Under the pieces are notes generated by a model. That model was given only the letters and a program-made list of their open reading frames with translations. It was not told the origin of the DNA and did no database searches. Positions 14,753 through 24,494 of a DNA stretch of 64,000 nucleotides are shown in pieces (positions within the stretch are counted from its first letter, which is position 1; each line of letters begins with the position of its first letter). The position numbers were made by a program, and so were the translations under genes. The stretch is taken from assembly GCF_000590925.1 (NCBI RefSeq), contig NZ_CP004372.1, positions 2,833,001 through 2,897,000 of the forward strand. Direction: 5' to 3'. Source of the DNA: Roseibacterium elongatum DSM 19469. GTDB lineage: Bacteria; Pseudomonadota; Alphaproteobacteria; Rhodobacterales; Rhodobacteraceae.

Positions 14753-14855
14753 GCACGGGCCAATTCGCCCTTGGCATGGACAGATTGCCGCGTCTAACCT
14801 CGCGCCCAAGCGGCCCGCGTAAGGGACGGAGCCGCGTTCTGTGGGAGGAACATCC

Positions 14856-15870
14856 ATGAAGTACTTTGCGACCTCCGCCATCGGGGCGGTCCTTTCGGTG
14901 TCTTTCGTCAGCGAAGCCCTGGCGACCGAATGGAATGTTTCGGTCTGGGGCCAGCGCCGCGCCTTTACCGAGCATATCCACTACCTCGCCGATGCCGTAT
15001 CCGAGGCCACGAATGGCGCGTTCACGATGAACATCAGCTATGGCGGCCTGTCCAACAACCGCGAGAATCTGGACGGTATCTCGATCGGGGCGTTCGAGAT
15101 GGCGCAGTTCTGCGCCGGCTACCACCCCGACAAGAACCGCGCGATCACCGTGCTGGAACTGCCCTTCATGGACGTGCGCAACCTCGACGAAGAGGTGGCC
15201 GTCAGCCATGCCGTCTATGACCATCCCGCCGTGGCCGAGGAAATGGCCCAGTGGAATGCGCGCATGCTGATGACCAGCCCGATGCCGCAATACAACCTCG
15301 TCGGCACGGGCGAGCCGCGCGACGAAGTGGCCGAGATGGACGGCATGCGCGTGCGGGCGACCGGGGGCCTGGGCGAACTGTTCTCGTCGGTGGGCGGTGT
15401 GCCGACCTCGGTGACCTCGTCCGAGGCCTATAACGCCATGGAGTCGGGCGTCGTCGATACCGTCGCCTTTGCCCAGCATGCGCATCTGTCCTTCCGCACG
15501 ATCGACATCGCCGACTGGTGGACCGAGAACCTGAACCCCGGCACGGTCAACTGCCCCGTCGTGGTGAATATCGACGCCTACGAGGCCCTGACGGACGAGG
15601 AACGCGCCGTTCTGGATGCCGCCGTCGATGATGCCATCGACTACTACCTCGAGAATTACGGCGAGCTTCTGGCACGGTGGGACGAGGTGCGTGGACGAGC
15701 GCGAGGTCGAGCGCGTCACGATCGCCGAGGAGCAGCTGGCGCAGCTCGCCGAGGCCGCGGCCCCGATCCACGCCGCCTGGATCGAGGAAATGAACGCCGC
15801 CGGCCTGCCCGCGCAGGAGCTCTACGATCTTGTGGGCGCCACCCTGCAGGAGGTGCGTTCGGGCAACTGA
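14856..15870 (+). CDS. dctP: TRAP transporter substrate-binding protein (DctP type), frame break near the C-terminus
   Basis: Periplasmic solute receptor of a tripartite ATP-independent transporter. It has a Sec signal (MKYFATSAIGAVLSVSFVSE, cut after A-L-A) and DctP-fold motifs (AFEMAQFCAGYHPDK, LELPFMDVRNLDEE, GMRVRATGGLGELFSSVGGV, SSEAYNAMESGVVDTVAF). One extra base near 15690 breaks the frame; deleting it joins ...WDEV to VDEREVERVTIAEEQ and gives 337 residues. GGGAGGA precedes the ATG. Organic-acid substrates are usual. Closeness to urate/allantoate genes hints at ureide-related solutes, which is inference. Confidence 0.88.
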
Positions 15871-15951
15871 GCCCCGGCGCGTCCTGATCGACAAACCCGC
15901 GGTCCGGCCCCGTGACGCCGGACCGCGGACAACCCTAATCCGGCGGCCTTC

Positions 15952-16584
15952 ATGTCTTCTTCCAATGTCCAGAGCGACAACAGCCTTTTGTCGCGTCTCG
16001 ACCGCGCGGTCTTGCGCGTCGAGGCGGCGCTGAACCTCATCGGCGGCGCGACGATCCTGCTGCTGGTCCTGATGGCCGTCTGGAACGTCATCGGGCGCAA
16101 GCTGTTCAACGCGCCGGTGCCGGGCTATGTCGACTGGACCTCGCAATTCATGATCCTGTTCGCCTTTCTCGGGCTGAGCTATTGCCAACGCGAGGGCGGC
16201 CATATCCGCATGGATATCGTGGTGATGCGCCTCAGGGGCCGCACCTTGTGGTTTGCCGAACTGCTGTCGGTGCTGTTCATGCTCATCCTGACGACGGGCC
16301 TGATCTATGGCAGCTGGCATCATTTCCTGCGTAGCTTCGACTGGGACATGGCGCTGTTTTCGCGTGACAGCTCGATCGATATCGGCCTGCCGCTCTGGCC
16401 CGCGAAACTGATCGTGCCGCTGGCCCTGTCCCTCTTGTGGGTGCGGCTGGTGTTGCAGGTCTGGGGCTATGCACGCGGCCTGAGGCAGGGGGGCGATGCG
16501 CCCGTTGCGGTCCCCCTGCCCGAGGATCCCATGGAACAGGCCAGCCGCGAGGCCGAAACGGTCAGCGGACACGACAAGGGGTAG
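15952..16584 (+). CDS. dctQ: TRAP transporter small membrane subunit (DctQ)
   Basis: A 210-residue small permease with four TM helices (LIGGATILLLVLMAVWNVIG, WTSQFMILFAFLGLSYC, LLSVLFMLILTTGLIYGSWH, LIVPLALSLLWVRLVLQ) and the DctQ signature R-x-G-H-I-x-(M/V)-D (REGGHIRMDIVV). It forms the complex with DctM. It follows dctP by 81 bp and precedes dctM by 6 bp. The cytoplasmic N-terminus of about 25 residues and a 35-residue hydrophilic C-tail are unremarkable. Confidence 0.92.
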   Translation: MSSSNVQSDNSLLSRLDRAVLRVEAALNLIGGATILLLVLMAVWNVIGRKLFNAPVPGYVDWTSQFMILFAFLGLSYCQREGGHIRMDIVVMRLRGRTLWFAELLSVLFMLILTTGLIYGSWHHFLRSFDWDMALFSRDSSIDIGLPLWPAKLIVPLALSLLWVRLVLQVWGYARGLRQGGDAPVAVPLPEDPMEQASREAETVSGHDKG

Positions 16585-16590
16585 CGCGGC

Positions 16591-18027
16591 ATGGATCAAT
16601 TCATCGACATGCGCGCCCTGCTCGACGGGGTCGATATCTTCACCGTCTCGCTGTGGCTGTGCGGACTGCTGCTGATCATGGTGCTGATCGGCGTGCGCGT
16701 GGCCTTTGCCGCCGCCTTTGTCGGGATCGTCGGGCTATGCATCTTCTTCATGCAGCGGCAGGGCTTTGACCGGGGTCTCGTGACGGCGCTGAAACTGGCC
16801 GGTCAGGTGCCGCATTCCAAATCGTCGGGCTATGCGCTCAGCCTGATCCCGACCTTCATCGTGATCGGCTATCTGGCCTATTACGCGGGCCTGACGCGCA
16901 CGCTGTTCGAGGCCGCGAAACGCTGGGTCGGCTGGGTGCCGGGGGGCTTGGGCGTCGCGACCGTCTTCGCCACGGCCGGCTTTGCCGCCGTCTCGGGCGC
17001 GTCGGTCGCCACCTCGGCCGTTTTCGCGCGGATCGCGATCCCCGAGATGCTGCGCCTGAACTACAACAAGGCCTTCGCCGCCGGCGTCGTCGCAGCGGGC
17101 GGGACGCTGGCCAGCCTGATCCCGCCCTCGGCCATTCTCGTGATCTACGCCATCATTGTCGAGGAATCCGTCGGCAAGCTGCTGCTGGCCGGGTTCGTTC
17201 CGGGCTTTGTCTCGGCGCTGATCTATGCGGGCCTGGTCATCGGCCTGGCCAAGTGGAAAAAGGACCTCGGCCCGCCGGTCACCGGCTACACCTGGGGCGA
17301 GCGGTTCGCCGCCCTGCCCGGCGCGCTGCCGATCATGTTCGTGATCTTCATCATCATCTTCTCGATCTATTATCGCGGCGAAGACGGGGCCTGGGCCACG
17401 CCGACCGAGGCGGGCGCGCTCGGGGCCTTTGTCGTGTTGGTCATGGCGCTGTGGAAGGGCATGAAATGGGGCGAGTTGAAAGGCGCGCTGATGGAGGCCG
17501 CCAAGCTGACCGCCATGATCTTCGCCATGATCTGGGGCGTGCTGATCTTCGTGCGGTTCCTCGGCTATGCGCAACTGCCCGATGTCTTCGCCGGGTTCAT
17601 CGGCGGGCTGGAATACTCGCCCTATCTGGTGCTGCTGGCGATCCTGCTGGTCTATGTCATCCTCGGCATGTTCATGGATGCGATCGGGATGCTGATCCTG
17701 ACGCTTCCGGTGACCTTCCCGGCCATCATCGCCCTCAATGGGGGGCCGGATGTCACGCGCGAGGCTTCGGCCTTTGGCATGACCGCCGAGGAATGCGCGA
17801 TCTGGTTCGGGATCATCGTGGTCAAGATGGCCGAGCTGTGTCTGATCACGCCGCCCATAGGTCTGAACTGCTTCGTCGTCGCCGGTGTCGCCAAGGACAG
17901 CAAGCTGCCCATCACCGTGCAGGACGTGTTTCGCGGCGCGACGCCTTTCTTCGCGGCCGATGTGGCCACGGTGGCTGTGCTGATCGCCTTCCCCGGTATC
18001 GTGCTCTGGCTGCCCTCCCTGATCTAG
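16591..18027 (+). CDS. dctM: TRAP transporter large permease (DctM)
   Basis: A 478-residue DctM permease, which uses the sodium or proton gradient for uptake. About 12 TM helices are seen, with the family elements GASVATSAVFARIAIPEMLR, AAGGTLASLIPPSAILVIYA, MFMDAIGMLILTLPVTFP and ELCLITPPIGLNCFVVAGVA. It is the last gene of the TRAP operon; the ABC binding-protein gene follows 78 bp later with its own ribosome site. Confidence 0.95.
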   Translation: MDQFIDMRALLDGVDIFTVSLWLCGLLLIMVLIGVRVAFAAAFVGIVGLCIFFMQRQGFDRGLVTALKLAGQVPHSKSSGYALSLIPTFIVIGYLAYYAGLTRTLFEAAKRWVGWVPGGLGVATVFATAGFAAVSGASVATSAVFARIAIPEMLRLNYNKAFAAGVVAAGGTLASLIPPSAILVIYAIIVEESVGKLLLAGFVPGFVSALIYAGLVIGLAKWKKDLGPPVTGYTWGERFAALPGALPIMFVIFIIIFSIYYRGEDGAWATPTEAGALGAFVVLVMALWKGMKWGELKGALMEAAKLTAMIFAMIWGVLIFVRFLGYAQLPDVFAGFIGGLEYSPYLVLLAILLVYVILGMFMDAIGMLILTLPVTFPAIIALNGGPDVTREASAFGMTAEECAIWFGIIVVKMAELCLITPPIGLNCFVVAGVAKDSKLPITVQDVFRGATPFFAADVATVAVLIAFPGIVLWLPSLI

Positions 18028-18105: not shown

Positions 18106-19298
18106 ATGAAAAAGATCCTTCTCGCCTCGGCCGCAACGATGGCCATGACCGGCGGCACCTTCGCCCAGGACGGCGGCGAGGTGCCGCTGGGCATCCTGCT
18201 CAGCTTCACCGGTCCGATCGAAAGCCTGGTGCCGCCGATCGCGGGCGGCGCCGAACTGGCCATTGCCGAGGTCAACGCTTCGGGTGCCTTCATGGACGGC
18301 ATGACCGTCACCCCCGTGCGCGCCGACACGTTCTGTTCGGATGCCGCCGGCGCGACGGCCAACGCCGAGCGCGTGATCACGACCGATGGCGTGGTGGGCA
18401 TCATGGGCTCGGACTGCTCGGGCATGTCCACGGCCATTCTGGCGAACGTCGCCGTGCCCAACGGCGTGCCGATGATCCGCCCGCCTCGACCAGCCCCGCG
18501 CTGTCCTCGGCCGACGATAACGGCCTGTTCTACCGCACCGCCCCGTCGGATGCGCGGCAGGGCCAGGTTCTGGCCGGCATCCTGATGGAGCGAGGCATCG
18601 AATCGATCGCCATCACCTACACCAACAACGACTACGGCCAAGGCTTTGCCGACGCGCTGCAAGCGGCCTATGAGGAGGCCGGTGGCGAAGTGACGCTGGT
18701 CGCCGCCCACGAGGATGGCCGCGCGGATTATTCGGCCGAAGTCGGCGCGCTGGCCTCGGCCGGCGGCGACGTGCTGGTGGTGTTGGGCTATGTCGATCAG
18801 GGTGGCTCGGGCGTGGTTCAGGCCGCGCTGGACACCGGCGCGTTCGACATGTTCGCCTTTGGTGACGGCATGGTCGGCGACACGTTGGCCGAAATCTTCG
18901 GCGGCGATATCGACGGCAGCTTCGGCACCGCACCGGGCGCCGAAGGCGAAGGCGTCGAGATGTACGCCACCGTCGCGGAAGGCGCCGATTTCGACAACAC
19001 CTCGGTCTTTTCGGCCGAAGCCTATGACGCAGCCGCGCTGCTGATGCTGGCGATGCAGGCCGCGGGGTCGACCGTGGGCACCGAATACGCGCCCGCGATC
19101 ATGGATGTGGCCAACGCCCCTGGCGAGCCGATCATGCCCGGCGAGTTGGGCCGCGCGCTCGAAATCCTCGCCGAAGGCGGCGAGATCGACTATCAGGGGG
19201 CCACGGGCGTCGAGATGATCGGCTCGGGCGAGGCAGCCGGGTCCTACCGCGTCGTCGAGATGCAGGGCGGATCGCTGGAGACGATCGAATTCCGCTGA
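18106..19298 (+). CDS. Liv-type ABC transporter substrate-binding protein (frame break)
   Basis: Periplasmic receptor of a branched-chain-amino-acid-type (HAAT) ABC importer. Signal peptide MKKILLASAATMAMTGGTFA is followed by GGEVPLGILLSFTGPIESLV, GVVGIMGSDCSGMSTAILAN, DDNGLFYRTAPSDARQGQVL and TYTNNDYGQGFADALQ, all type I periplasmic-binding-fold landmarks. One base is missing near 18480, between GVPMI and ASTSPALSS; the corrected length is 397 residues. A terminator-like hairpin follows before the ATPase genes, which usually lets the binding protein be made in excess. Ligand unknown (amino acids, amides or urea-like compounds are typical). Confidence 0.9.
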
Positions 19299-19376: not shown

Positions 19377-20165
19377 ATGATCACGGTCGAGAACCTGCAC
19401 AAGCATTTCAGCGGCTTTCACGCCGTGGACGGCGCCAGCCTGAAAATCGAGACCGGGTCGATCACCGGCCTGATCGGACCGAACGGCGCGGGCAAGACCA
19501 CGCTGTTCAACGTGGTTGCAGGCGTTCTGCCGCCGACCTCGGGGCGCGTCGTGATGGATGGCGAGGACATCACCGGCCTGCCCCCGCACGAGCTGTTCGC
19601 CAAGGGGTTGCTGCGCACCTTTCAGATCGCGCACGAGTTCTCGTCGATGAGCTGCCGCGAAAACCTGATGATGGTGCCCGCCGGCCAGTCGGGCGAAAAG
19701 CTGTGGAACACCTGGTTCGGGCGCAAGCGCATCGCCGAGGAGGAACGCGCCCTGCGCGCCAAGGCCGACGAGGTGCTGGAATTCCTGACCATCGAGCACC
19801 TGGCCGACCACCCCGCCGGCATGATCTCGGGCGGGCAAAAAAAGCTGCTGGAACTGGGCCGCACGATGATGGTGGACGCCAAGATCGTGTTCCTCGACGA
19901 GGTGGGCGCGGGCGTGAACCGCACGCTTCTGAACACCATCGGCGACGCGATCCTGCGCCTGAACCAGGATCGCGGCTACACCTTCTGCATGATCGAGCAT
20001 GACATGGATTTCATCGGCCGCCTTTGCGATCCCGTCATCGTCATGGCCGAGGGCCGCGTGCTGGCCGAAGGCTCCATCGGCGAGATCAAGGCCAATAACG
20101 AGGTGATCGAGGCCTATCTCGGGACTGGCCTCAAGAACAAGGACAAGCTGGAGGCGGGCGCATGA
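19377..20165 (+). CDS. livG: ABC transporter ATPase, LivG type
   Basis: A 262-residue ATP-binding subunit. Walker [10 protein letters not shown] (residues about 33-41), LivG-typical [16 protein letters not shown], signature [16 protein letters not shown], Walker [14 protein letters not shown] and switch IEHDMDF. The E of Walker B is kept, but the usual D-E-P-x-A-G-L reads D-E-V-G-A-G-V. It overlaps livF by 4 nt. Confidence 0.92.
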
Positions 20166-20992
20166 GCGGCGACAGCGGCTACGAGGATCGCGGCAACAAC
20201 GACCGCTCGGTCACCGGCGAGCCGGTCGATCACATGGGCGATCCGGTCCCCGCGGGGGGCCGCGCCGAACGGATCGAGGGCGCCAGCGCCTTTCTGATCG
20301 GCGAGGCGATGACCGGCGGCTATGGCGGCGGTGCGGACATCCTGCATGACTGCACCATCGCCGTGAACCCCGGCGAGATCGCGGTGATCGTGGGGCCAAA
20401 CGGCGCGGGCAAATCCACCGCGATGAAGGCCGTTTTCGGCATGCTGAACCTGCGCAAGGGGCGCGTTGTGCTGGATGGCGAGGATATCACCCACCTGACC
20501 CCGCAGGCCCGCGTGCAAAAGGGCATGGGCTTCGTGCCGCAGACCTCGAACATCTTCACCTCGATGACGGTCGAGGAAAACCTCGAGATGGGCGCCTACA
20601 CCCGCCGCGACGATTTCCGCCCGACGATGGAGCAGGTCTATGACCTGTTCCCGATCCTGCGCGAGAAACGCCACCAGGCGGCGGGCGAGCTTTCGGGCGG
20701 GCAGCGTCAGCAGGTCGCCGTGGGCCGTGCGCTGATGACCAAGCCCAAGGTGCTGATGCTGGACGAGCCCACCGCCGGTGTCTCGCCCATCGTCATGGAC
20801 GAGCTGTTCGACCGCATCATCGAGGTCAGCCGCACCGGCATCCCCATCCTGATGGTGGAACAGAACGCGCGTCAGGCGCTGGAAATCGCCGATCGCGGCT
20901 ATGTGCTGGTGCAGGGCGCGAACGCCCATACCGGCACCGGCAAGGACCTGCTGGCCGATGATGAGGTCCGCCGCAGCTTCCTCGGGGGCTGA
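20162..20992 (+). CDS. livF: ABC transporter ATPase, LivF type, with N-terminal extension
   Basis: A 276-residue second ATPase: Walker A GPNGAGKST, Q-loop FVPQTSNIFTSMTVEENLEM, signature LSGGQRQQVAVGRAL, Walker B VLMLDEPTAGVSP, H-switch replaced by MVEQNARQAL as in LivF. LivF is normally about 235-240 residues; here about 45 hydrophilic residues (GDSGYEDRGNNDRSVTGE) precede the core, so the true start could be internal, though the 4-nt overlap with livG supports 20162. Three small secreted-protein genes follow directly. Confidence 0.9.
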   Translation: MSGDSGYEDRGNNDRSVTGEPVDHMGDPVPAGGRAERIEGASAFLIGEAMTGGYGGGADILHDCTIAVNPGEIAVIVGPNGAGKSTAMKAVFGMLNLRKGRVVLDGEDITHLTPQARVQKGMGFVPQTSNIFTSMTVEENLEMGAYTRRDDFRPTMEQVYDLFPILREKRHQAAGELSGGQRQQVAVGRALMTKPKVLMLDEPTAGVSPIVMDELFDRIIEVSRTGIPILMVEQNARQALEIADRGYVLVQGANAHTGTGKDLLADDEVRRSFLGG

Positions 20993-20998
20993 GCCGTC

Positions 20999-21364
20999 AT
21001 GACCGCCCCTGCCCTCACCCTGTCGATCCTGTTGGCCGCGCCCCCCGCGCTGGCGCAGCCCGTGGCCTGCGCCTTCACGCTGGTCTGCGCGCCCGAGATC
21101 GATTGCGAGGCGCATGAGGGCATTCCCTTCGAGCTGGCCTTTGAGGACGGCCGCTACAGCCTCGAGGTCGACGATCAGCCCCTGACGGCCCGCCCTTTGG
21201 CGCGCTTTGCCGACGGGGGACTTGGCCTCGTCTTCGAGGCCGAGGGCGAAACGCTGCTGTTCACCCTGACCCCCGGCAATGAGGGCGTGCTGACCCGCCA
21301 CCGGATCGCACCGGGCGGCCGCCTTGGCGTCGCCAGTTTCATCGGCCCCTGTGTGCGAGGATGA
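20999..21364 (+). CDS. Small secreted cysteine protein 1 in the ABC operon
   Basis: A 121-residue protein with a signal peptide (LTLSILLAAPPALA, cut before QPVAC). The mature part starts with C-A-F-T-L-V-C-x6-C (CAFTLVCAPEIDC) and ends with FIGPCVRG, giving four cysteines that could form two disulfides. The middle is beta-rich. It begins 6 bp after livF and overlaps the next gene by 4 nt, so it is co-translated with the transporter. The same cysteine layout recurs in the next two genes. No known family; a periplasmic accessory to the transporter is inference. Confidence 0.72.
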   Translation: MTAPALTLSILLAAPPALAQPVACAFTLVCAPEIDCEAHEGIPFELAFEDGRYSLEVDDQPLTARPLARFADGGLGLVFEAEGETLLFTLTPGNEGVLTRHRIAPGGRLGVASFIGPCVRG

Positions 21365-21807
21365 CAATGACCGCCTTTGCCCGCCTGTCCCTTGCCGCGC
21401 TTTGCGCCCTGCCCCTGTCGCCGCTTGCGGCGCAGACGCCCGGCGCGACGCTGACATGCGACTTGACGGTGGTCTGCCTCGGGGTGGCCCCCTGCCGCGA
21501 CTGGGATCAATCCATCACGCTCGAGGTGCCGGCGCACGCGGACGCGGCCTGGGTCGTCACCTGGCCGGGGGCCCAGAGCGCGGCCTATGACCTCGTCGCC
21601 GATCTGCCCGCGCCCGAGGGGTCGCTGCGCCCCGCGCGCATTCGCACCCTGGTGCACGCCGCCGCAGATACGCAAGCGGTGCAGATCGTCACCCTGTCCG
21701 ATATCGGTCATGTCGCCGTGACCATGCACCAGCCGCATGTGACACCGCCGGTTGTCACCGCGGGCGGCACCTGCCCGGCGCTCATCCCCGAGGGAGGGGG
21801 CGAGTGA
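21361..21807 (+). CDS. Small secreted cysteine protein 2 in the ABC operon
   Basis: A 148-residue protein with a signal peptide (RLSLAALCALPLSPLAA, cut before QTPGA). The mature region opens C-D-L-T-V-V-C-x5-C (CDLTVVCLGVAPC) and has a late GGTC cysteine (VVTAGGTCPALIP), matching its neighbours. It overlaps the previous gene by 4 nt and shares one base (TGATG) with the following gene. It is the longest of the three paralogues. Function unknown. Confidence 0.72.
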   Translation: MTMTAFARLSLAALCALPLSPLAAQTPGATLTCDLTVVCLGVAPCRDWDQSITLEVPAHADAAWVVTWPGAQSAAYDLVADLPAPEGSLRPARIRTLVHAAADTQAVQIVTLSDIGHVAVTMHQPHVTPPVVTAGGTCPALIPEGGGE

Positions 21808-22175
21808 TGCGGCGAGCGGCTTTTATCCTTGTGCTGATCGGCTCTGCCGCGGCCGCATCGGCCGAGCCCTGGCGCTGCGACATGACCGTGGCCTGCCCCG
21901 CCGACGCGCCCTGTGACGCCAGCGACCTGACCCTCGATCTGCTGGCCGCCGACCACGCGGGCGAGTTGTTCCTGACCGGGCTGGGACAGGACATTCCCGT
22001 CGCCGCCCTGTCGCCTGACGGGGCCGCCCGCCACCACTATGCCGGGCACGGCGCGAATGCGGCCGCCCTGCTTTTGAGCATCGAGGCTGACTCGCGCGCG
22101 GTGTTGACCCTGCATTCGACAGGACCGACCGGGGCCGCGACCAGCTATTTCGGAACCTGCGAGGAGTTGACCTGA
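21807..22175 (+). CDS. Small secreted cysteine protein 3 in the ABC operon
   Basis: A 122-residue protein with a signal peptide (AAFILVLIGSAAAASA, cut before EPWRC). The mature part opens C-D-M-T-V-A-C-x5-C (CDMTVACPADAPC) and ends YFGTCEELT. The block TLHSTGPTGAATSYFGTC aligns with RHRIAPGGRLGVASFIGPC of protein 1. ATG at 21807 (after GAGGGAGGGGG) is preferred to the GTG 3 nt earlier. The stop is immediately followed by the livH ATG. Function unknown. Confidence 0.72.
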   Translation: MRRAAFILVLIGSAAAASAEPWRCDMTVACPADAPCDASDLTLDLLAADHAGELFLTGLGQDIPVAALSPDGAARHHYAGHGANAAALLLSIEADSRAVLTLHSTGPTGAATSYFGTCEELT

Positions 22176-23187
22176 ATGGATGTCCTCAACGCGATCGTGG
22201 CGCTTGCCAATTTCGTGCTGATCCCCGCCACTGCCTATGGCGCGCAACTGGCGCTTGGGGCGTTGGGGGTGACGCTGATCTACGGCATCTTGCGCTTTTC
22301 GAACTTCGCCCATGGCGACACGATGGCCTTTGGCACGATGGTCGTGATCCTCGTGACATGGTGGCTGCAATCACTGGGCGTGTCGCTCGGGCCGCTGCCC
22401 ACCGCGCTTTTGGCCCTGCCTGTGGGGATCGCCGTCACGGGGCTTTTGCTGATCGGGACGGACAAGGTCGTCTACCGCTTCTACCGCCAACAAAAGGCCA
22501 AGCCGATCATCTATGTGATCGCCTCGCTGGGGGTGATGTTCGTGATGAACGGGCTGGTGCGGTTCATCATCGGGGTCGATGACCAGCGCTTTGCCGATGG
22601 CGAACGCTTCATCATTTCGGCGCGCGAGTTCCGGACCATGACCGGCCTTGACGAAGGGCTGGCCCTGCGCACCAGCCAGGGGCTGACCATCGTCGTGGCG
22701 ATCATCGCGGTCGCGCTTCTGTTCTGGTTCCTCAACCGCACCCGGACCGGCAAATCCATGCGGGCCTTTTCCGATAACGAGGATCTGGCGCTGCTGTCGG
22801 GGATCAACCCCGAACGCGTGGTGCTGATCACATGGCTGATCGTCGCCGCATTGGCGACCACGGCCGGGGTGGCTCTACGGTCTCGACAAGAGCTTCAAGC
22901 CCTTCACCTATTTCCAACTGTTGCTGCCGATTTTCGCCTCGGCCATCGTGGGCGGCCTTGGCAACCCGTTGGGGGCGATCCTGGGCGGGTTCGTCATCGC
23001 CTATTCCGAGGTGGCCGTCACCTATGCCTTCCGCAAGGTCGTCTCGTACCTGGTACCCGAGGGCATGGAGCCCGAGGGGCTGCTGCAACTTCTGTCAACC
23101 GATTACAAATTCGCGGTCAGCTTCGGCATCCTGCTGATCGTTCTGTTGTTCAAACCCACCGGCATCATGAAGGGGAAAGCGGTATGA
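22176..23187 (+). CDS. livH: ABC transporter permease, LivH type (frame break)
   Basis: Membrane permease of the Liv-type importer; after removing one extra G near 22871 (GVLYGLDKSFKPF restored) it is 336 residues with about eight TM helices. Motifs: GALGVTLIYGILRFSNFAHGD at the N-terminus (typical LivH F-A-H-G-D/E), GKSMRAFSDNEDLALLSGINPERV (the EAA-like cytoplasmic loop) and ASAIVGGLGNPLGAILGGFV. It starts directly after the third cysteine-protein gene and overlaps livM by 4 nt. Confidence 0.9.
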
Positions 23188-24494
23188 GCGGAGCGGTGAA
23201 TCTCCGGGCCGTGGGCCTGTTCGCCCTGGTGGCGCTGCTGTTCATCGGCACCGGCATCGTGCAGTCGTGGAACACCTCGCTGACAATCCTGAACATGGGC
23301 CTGATCAGCGCGATCATGGCGCTTGGTGTGAACATGCAATGGGGCTATGCCGGCCTGTTCAACGTGGGTGTCATGGGCTTTCTGGCGCTTGGGGGGCTGG
23401 CCACCGTCCTTGTCTCGATGGACCCGGTGGGCGAGGCCTGGGCCGCGGGCGGCATGGGCGTGATCCTGGGCCTGATCCTGGGCGCGGCCACGATCATCGC
23501 CGCGATCCTGGCCCGTCAGAAACTGCCGGCCGGCCGGCTGCGTACCCTGGCGCTGCTGGCCATCTTGGTGGGCGGGTTCTTCCTGTTCCGCGGCGTGTTC
23601 GACCGCGGTGTCGAAGCGGTCGAATCCGTCAACCCTTCGGTCAGCGGCTATCTGGGGGGGCTGGGCCTGCCCGTGCTGCTGGCCTGGCCCGTGGGCGGGA
23701 TGCTGGCCGCCGGGGCGGCCTGGATCATCGGCAAGACCGCCCTTGGCCTGCGTTCGGATTACCTCGCCATCGCGACGCTCGGCATTGCCGAGATCATCAT
23801 CGCCATCCTCAAGAACGAGGACTGGCTGGCGCGGGGCGTGAAGAACGTCATCGGCATTCCCCGCCCTGTGCCCTACGAGGTCGATCTGCAGGCCTCCGAA
23901 GGCTTCCAGAGCTTCGCGGCGTCGATGGGCTCGGACCCGGTCACCGCCTCGACCATCACGGTCAAACTGCTTTATGCGGCATTGTTCGTCACCGTGCTGC
24001 TGATCCTGATCTGGCTGAGCCAGAAGGCGCTGAACTCGCCCTGGGGCCGGATGATGCGCGCGATCCGCGACAACGAAGTGGCGGCCGAGGCGATGGGCAA
24101 GGACGTCACACGCCGCCACTTGCAGATTTTCGTGCTCGGCTCGGCCGTGATCGGGCTGGCGGGGGCGATGATGACCACGCTCGACAGTCAGCTTGTGCCC
24201 TCGACCTATCAGCCGCTGCGCTTCACCTTCCTGATCTGGGTGATGGTGATCGTGGGCGGATCGGGCAACAACTGGGGCGCGGTTCTGGGCGGGTTCCTGA
24301 TCTGGTGGCTGTGGGTCATGGTCGAACCCATGGGCATGGCGCTGATGCAGGCGGTCACCGTGGGCCTCGACGAGGGCTCGGCCCTGCGCGATCACCTGTT
24401 GGGATCGGCCGCGCATATGCGCCTGCTGACGATGGGGATCATCCTGCTGCTCGTGCTGCGCTTCAGCCCCAAGGGGCTGCTGCCCGAACGCTGA
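23184..24494 (+). CDS. livM: ABC transporter permease, LivM type
   Basis: Second permease, 436 residues, about ten TM helices: ALGVNMQWGYAGLFNVGVMG (LivM G-x-x-G-x-x-S/N-x-G), GLRSDYLAIATLGIAEII, NSPWGRMMRAIRDNEVAAEA (EAA loop) and VGGSGNNWGAVLGGFLIWWL. It is longer than many LivM proteins because of an extra hydrophobic stretch near residues 95-190. Final gene of the operon; a terminator follows. Confidence 0.93.
   Translation: MSGAVNLRAVGLFALVALLFIGTGIVQSWNTSLTILNMGLISAIMALGVNMQWGYAGLFNVGVMGFLALGGLATVLVSMDPVGEAWAAGGMGVILGLILGAATIIAAILARQKLPAGRLRTLALLAILVGGFFLFRGVFDRGVEAVESVNPSVSGYLGGLGLPVLLAWPVGGMLAAGAAWIIGKTALGLRSDYLAIATLGIAEIIIAILKNEDWLARGVKNVIGIPRPVPYEVDLQASEGFQSFAASMGSDPVTASTITVKLLYAALFVTVLLILIWLSQKALNSPWGRMMRAIRDNEVAAEAMGKDVTRRHLQIFVLGSAVIGLAGAMMTTLDSQLVPSTYQPLRFTFLIWVMVIVGGSGNNWGAVLGGFLIWWLWVMVEPMGMALMQAVTVGLDEGSALRDHLLGSAAHMRLLTMGIILLLVLRFSPKGLLPER

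Follow-up and report, generated by a model that had tools for sequence, protein, structure and literature searches.

Small, putatively exported four-cysteine proteins encoded between livF and livH in a Liv-type importer operon of Rhodobacteraceae

Three small genes at the livF-livH junction

The operon of a Liv/HAAT ATP-binding cassette (ABC) importer in Roseibacterium elongatum DSM 19469 (family Rhodobacteraceae) holds three small genes, here called X1, X2 and X3, between livF and livH. The window analysed here is the whole stretch of 64,000 nucleotides (nt) from the forward strand of contig NZ_CP004372.1 (positions 2,833,001 to 2,897,000), in a genome that consists of a single contig of 3,555,109 bases. 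The order of genes on the plus strand is dctP-dctQ-dctM, livJ, livG, livF, X1, X2, X3, livH and livM, and an enoyl-CoA hydratase gene lies on the opposite strand after livM (Table 1). All five components of the importer are present, namely two PF02653 permeases, two PF00005 ATPases and a binding protein.

The genes of the junction are closely packed. The stop of livF at 20992 is followed by the ATG of X1 at 20999, the end of X1 shares 4 nt with the start of X2 (21361-21364), X2 and X3 do likewise when X3 is read from GTG 21804, and the stop of X3 at 22175 is followed immediately by the ATG of livH at 22176. A preliminary description of this DNA had proposed that the X genes are translationally coupled to each other and to livH, which the gene overlaps back. 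It had also claimed three overlapping genes from livF to livH, each with a signal peptide and a final G-x-C, and the reading frames proved to be as it had said. Visual inspection and a hydropathy rule predict signal peptides of the Ala-x-Ala type in X1, X2 and X3, and the C-terminal motif reads GPC in X1 and GTC in X2 and X3. The opening motif had been given as C-x-x-T-(L/V)-(V/A)-C followed by five or six residues and a further cysteine. Its first part is present in all three proteins, but the second spacer is always of five residues (CAFTLVC-x5-C in X1, CDLTVVC-x5-C in X2 and CDMTVAC-x5-C in X3).

Table 1. Features of the window around the livF-livH junction (aa, amino acids)
Feature	Coordinates	Strand	Remarks
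X1	20999..21364	+	121 aa; predicted signal peptide; C24, C30, C36, C118; H101
X2	21361..21807	+	148 aa; ATG 21361 (second ATG 21367); predicted signal peptide; C33, C39, C45, C138; H123; predicted eight-stranded barrel
X3	21804..22175	+	123 aa; GTG 21804 or ATG 21807; predicted signal peptide; C25, C31, C37, C119; H104; predicted eight-stranded barrel; adjoins livH
livJ, periplasmic binding protein	18106..19298	+	PF13458 in first part; internal 1-nt frame break
livG, ATPase	19377..20165	+	PF00005, PF12399
livF, ATPase	20162..20992	+	PF00005; long N-terminal extension
livH, permease	22176..23187	+	PF02653; internal 1-nt frame break
livM, permease	23184..24494	+	PF02653; ATGA overlap with livH
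TRAP transporter dctP-dctQ-dctM	14841-18027	+	directly upstream of livJ

A protein family with its own cysteine scaffold

The X1, X2 and X3 proteins had been described as diverged paralogues, and this view is backed by profile comparisons, by a decoy-controlled search with mature domains and by structure models of X2 and X3 with the same strand order. Full-length profiles, signal peptides included, match at 3.8e-11 (X1 and X3), 2.5e-11 (X2 and X3) and 3.6e-6 (X1 and X2). Family searches that retained the signal peptides were uninformative, with 27 to 52 of 120 decoys passing 1e-3. For the mature-domain search, the proteins of the junctions were cut five residues before the first scaffold cysteine, and decoys were made that keep every cysteine in place. 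The pool comprised 127 open reading frames (ORFs), 120 of them unique, from which L088_1, L088_2 and L100_1 were removed by hand and L100_2, L107_1, L193_1 and L203_1 were skipped. The seed profile, of which X1, X2 and X3 are members, reached 60 of 102 non-seed proteins at 1e-5 in the first pass. In the final round 85 of 113 junction proteins were matched at E<=1e-5, and neither the 339 cysteine-fixed nor the 339 fully shuffled decoys gave a single match; with the threshold relaxed to 1e-3 the figures were 95/113 proteins and 7/339 cysteine-fixed decoys. One further profile was built in part from loci that it then searched. When the proteins of the window clade are placed on a tree, X1 (5 rows, 97/98) and X2 (6 rows, 98/98) each form a supported clade across genome boundaries, so that these paralogues predate the split of the genera and have been kept as orthologues. 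X3 is not resolved as one supported clade in this tree, from which the second L138 gene was excluded by the motif filter.

The three proteins form one unnamed family that looks new. No Pfam or NCBIfam family matches X1, X2 or X3 at E<=1. An alignment of 21 rows gave 0.035 as its best Pfam value and 0.017 as its best PHROGs value, with no PADLOC family at E<=0.1; an alignment of 11 rows found no Pfam family at 0.1, and a sequence search of the PDB gave nothing below 0.13. For a third alignment, no precomputed Pfam domain was present among the 120 listed of its 155 relatives. The NCBIfam hits of the 11-row alignment, to 'His-rich protein BRANT' (2 rows, best 1.5e-4) and BufA2 (1 row, 0.014), were taken for probable matches of signal peptide and composition. 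The lysozyme inhibitor MliC (PF09864) was considered as well, being a small exported protein with conserved cysteines and also an eight-stranded barrel. It was rejected on sequence grounds: the PF09864 profile hits true members elsewhere in the relatives and does not match any X gene; a profile comparison gave a probability of 0.1, a weak test with a crude PF09864 alignment that contains long multi-domain rows.

The plain four-cysteine pattern occurs in 84 of the 113 junction proteins; 18 others keep the outer pair only, 8 have exactly one inner cysteine and 3 show other patterns. If inner cysteines were lost independently, about 35 of the 110 proteins in the first three classes would be expected to have one inner cysteine, compared with the 8 observed, two of which owe their pattern to a short start chosen by the script. 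The scarcity of such proteins favours disulfides C1-C4 and C2-C3, a pairing suggested here from sequence patterns. Besides the cysteines and the glycine before the last one, the best-kept residues across the 85 members are a phenylalanine two positions after the first cysteine (0.66) and a histidine in strand 7 (0.62).

Structure models are at hand for X2 and X3, and AlphaFold predicts an eight-stranded barrel for both, with a predicted local distance difference test score (pLDDT) of 85.1 and a predicted template modelling score (pTM) of 0.75 for X3, and a pLDDT of 84.3 and a pTM of 0.74 for X2. The two models share the order of the eight strands; the preliminary description had named unrelated predicted structures as a refutation of its view, and the models of these two proteins are alike. 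The models have eight strands, as do calycin-like barrels (lipocalins, avidins); these and the Cap15 barrel are among the top-ranked solved structures, with no significant Foldseek match and no sequence relation to the X proteins, which carry a conserved cysteine scaffold of their own.

The X proteins also change faster than the importer. Between the window genome and the same-genus genome G003, amino-acid identity is 0.76 for X1, 0.68 for X2 and 0.60 for X3, whereas livG, livF and the N-terminal portion of livH reach 0.94-0.97. In this single genome pair, the ratio of nonsynonymous to synonymous substitution rates (dN/dS, Nei-Gojobori) is 0.31 for X1, 0.27 for X2 and 0.47 for X3, while livG gives 0.083, livF 0.080 and the N-terminal portion of livH 0.047. 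Positive selection, as a dN/dS above 1, was not found in the pairwise test of this one pair, and X2 has many invariant residues over 26 sequences.

Filled and empty junctions and the host importer

Same-genus genomes carry the X genes in the same operon, as the preliminary description would lead one to expect; X1 is present in all five that were searched (the window genome included), with two or three copies per operon. A profile of 21 proteins gave 88 matches in 70 of 295 Rhodobacteraceae genomes, and 82 of these matches lie in a liv operon, 62 within 5 kb upstream of livH on the same strand and a further 5 and 15. Family matches were also found in 31 of 121 genomes drawn from the order, while 240 genomes drawn across the class returned only the window's own matches. 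Within the window genome no family member is found at the other PF02653 permease loci (22 matches).

The importer itself is widespread: of the 295 family genomes, 261 have a LivH match (233-aa query) at E<=1e-90. Seventy of the best listed matches among these 261 were taken as a junction sample, regardless of X, and 69 could be judged: 35 junctions are empty (4-164 nt between livF and livH) and 34 are filled (346-2000 nt). Every filled junction (34/34) contains one or more ORFs that look exported and have at least two cysteines, and among the 35 genomes with an empty one only G104 and G124 have a family match elsewhere. In a second, named set, made of the best 80 listed matches with 79 judged and overlapping in organisms with the first, 30 junctions are empty and 49 filled, and 47 of the filled ones have an exported-looking cysteine ORF. 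The rule for such ORFs is loose; of the 49 filled named junctions it passes these 47 on the coding strand and 10 on the reverse strand, and once the sequences are shuffled in blocks of 2 bases a mean of 5.1 still pass. The four-cysteine motif is found in 35 of them on the forward strand, in 0 on the reverse strand and in 0.1 after shuffling.

The family accounts for most filled junctions of the pool, with at least one member in 62 of 76 and none in 14, including those with two-cysteine 'SLKD' proteins. The latter type, with S-L-K/R-D...P-G-x-Y/F-R-V, was seen in the livF-livH junctions of L053, L061, L082, L086, L088 and L112; it keeps the outer cysteine pair only, and its proteins are at best weak members of the family. 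An operon has between 0 and 5 copies. Of the five in G206, one lies between livG and livF, where G260 also has a family member. Other exported-looking proteins of about 120-210 aa were noticed in the livG-livF junctions of L150, L151, L163, L164 and L197, and the one in L164 looks, on inspection, similar to the X scaffold.

The filled or empty state was placed on a tree of LivG, LivF, LivH and LivM, where it changes 21 times, with at least 13 changes forced by well-supported branches. Shuffled labels change 24.4 times, and 41 of 500 shuffles are as low as 21 (quick tree). The state hardly clusters, so it can be set aside as an inherited trait, and its nearly random placement indicates that the genes come and go, gain and loss not being told apart.

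The importer that accompanies the X genes is of the Leu/Ile/Val type as far as the resemblance of its LivJ goes. The first part of livJ in the window matches PF13458 at 1.8e-12, and the intact livJ of G003 matches Leu/Ile/Val-binding proteins, with 4n0q as the best at 1.7e-21. Regarding a substrate from the literature, the accessible text of PMC10130141 names no livF, livK or HAAT gene. Compared with G003, livJ of the window is one base short and livH has one base extra, which breaks both frames; the five liv genes are thus not all intact in the window genome, and X1, X2 and X3 are intact. The importer of this strain is either mis-sequenced or decaying.

Several side observations concern the surroundings. 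The dctP gene (14841-15887) seems to leave its frame near the end, as judged from the ORF list. The TRAP transporter upstream of livJ is seen on the same strand in G003 and L137 too, and in G104 without liv genes. G003 carries the database name Maritalea mobilis, which is at odds with its near-identity to the genus of the window, so it is likely a misnamed strain. In L226 (3512-4814), three exported short cysteine genes, at least one of them an X member, stand in tandem before a gene for a penicillin-amidase-looking protein of 820 aa with no liv gene nearby.

A possible accessory of the importer

The reading that we prefer, with a probability of roughly 0.45, is that X1, X2 and X3 are periplasmic accessory barrels of one particular Liv-type ABC importer and act on its import path. 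The link of the family to the importer operon is strong. Export and the barrel fold are predicted by signal peptides and models, and we infer a function as importer accessory, in contact with LivJ or LivHM and with a part in handling the ligand. The X proteins would be translated along with the permease, exported and folded in the periplasm, where the barrel might be closed by a C1-C4 disulfide that joins the first and last strands and be braced by C2-C3. Their action would probably take place where LivJ meets LivHM. Most likely they would capture a ligand, or a partner that carries one, and deliver it to LivJ; alternatively, they may contact LivJ, or LivHM on its periplasmic side, and so shift specificity or affinity. 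Different copies could adjust the importer for different ligands or different conditions. Ligand capture would be served by a barrel whose interior varies, and variety in the absence of a shared pocket would fit several ligands or partners. Since the importer is kept without X in many genomes, the X proteins would modulate it or widen its scope and would not be essential to its operation.

We know of no such extra genes in the described Liv/HAAT importers (LivJ/K-LivH-LivM-LivG-LivF), whose five components the X host operon likewise has. The preliminary description, which had named periplasmic co-receptors, scaffolds for the binding protein and ligand carriers as candidate roles, had known of no HAAT accessory of this form, and none came to light in the libraries and in the literature searched, from whose scope subscription papers and preprints were excluded. 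Periplasmic helpers are described for zinc importers. According to the accessible text of PMC6689063, AztD, a beta-propeller, is encoded in the operon of the zinc importer AztABCD of Paracoccus denitrificans and hands zinc to the binding protein, and ZinT is a periplasmic zinc helper that binds ZnuA. The X proteins resemble both, as far as that text describes them, in being a putative extra periplasmic protein with a small-ligand ABC importer, and aztD, like the X genes, lies in the importer operon. They differ in that AztD and ZinT belong to zinc importers, whereas the importer with the X genes belongs to the Leu/Ile/Val type, and these genes stand in tandem and are missing from many operons; no match of X1, X2 or X3 to a ZinT or AztD family was found in Pfam or NCBIfam. 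The protein family looks new, but helpers of this kind, periplasmic and encoded alongside an ABC importer, are already known.

Several points weigh against an accessory role. The contacts with LivJ, LivH or LivM and the ligand are hypothetical. About half of the sampled operons have no such gene, so transport can proceed without X. Little is conserved besides the cysteines, the glycine before the last one and the partly kept histidine, which makes a common ligand unlikely. Foldseek found no significant match among solved structures, the best E being 0.004 for X3 and 0.082 for X2 (a lectin). Moreover, 6 of the 88 profile matches lie outside a liv operon (two in G104 and one each in G124, G143, G153 and G288). 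The G104 pair stands directly after the TRAP gene dctM and before an enoyl-CoA hydratase gene, a position that the liv operon occupies in the window, and the liv junction of G104 is empty and on another contig. The G124 outlier is near an integrase gene, and that of G143 is in tandem before a penicillin-amidase-looking gene.

These outliers in G104, G124 and G143, together with the patchy presence (21 changes of state, at least 13 of them supported, against 24.4 in shuffles) and the few genomes with exported proteins outside the family at livG-livF, would fit genes that are passengers, whose periplasmic job is unrelated to amino-acid import and for which the liv operon is a reliable, well-expressed landing place. 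We consider this a serious rival, although a less likely one, for the concentration of 82 of 88 matches in one operon and the lack of members at the other permease loci of the window genome exceed what passengers need. The barrels might also be guards that shield the periplasmic face of the importer or inhibit a hostile protein, be it from a phage, a contact toxin or a lysozyme-like enzyme, in an arms race that makes them diversify. The dN/dS values well above those of livG, livF and livH and the variable copy number could be read this way, and the database name of one relative, P0057, as far as it was read, begins 'Membrane-bound ly'; but the ratio nowhere exceeds 1, X2 keeps its invariant residues, the 21 members gave no PADLOC match, and PF09864 misses the X genes, with the low probability obtained from its crude alignment, so that a guarding role, also a serious rival, appears less probable still.

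A role in the insertion or stability of LivH and LivM, with no part in ligand handling, is what the translational coupling to livH and the position of the X3 type immediately upstream of livH in the window clade might suggest. This seems less probable again, as the same permease stands beside an empty junction in 35/69 and 30/79 cases, and the permease is uniform while the X proteins vary. Chance open frames in spacer DNA can practically be dismissed: the loose ORF rule does pass on the reverse strand of 10/49 junctions, but the four-cysteine motif is confined to the forward strand, orthologues exist in other genera and dN/dS is well below 1.

Rhodobacteraceae, a largely marine family, take up much of the sea's dissolved amino acids and other small molecules, and the importer is present in most of the family genomes searched (261/295). 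The livF-livH junction could be a specificity slot of this widespread importer, in which lineages load, swap, multiply and lose different periplasmic barrels and so give the importer new ligands or partners with its own parts unchanged. We regard this reading as rather unlikely; if true, it would amount to a modular retuning of an ABC importer by gene cassettes, which was not described in the literature searched. An exported family that is tied to the importer and present or absent among close relatives would explain differences in uptake, or alternatively would show that ABC importers can be controlled or defended at an additional, periplasmic level. Filled and empty junctions occur naturally side by side among relatives and so can be compared directly, and the small size of the genes favours deletion and purification.
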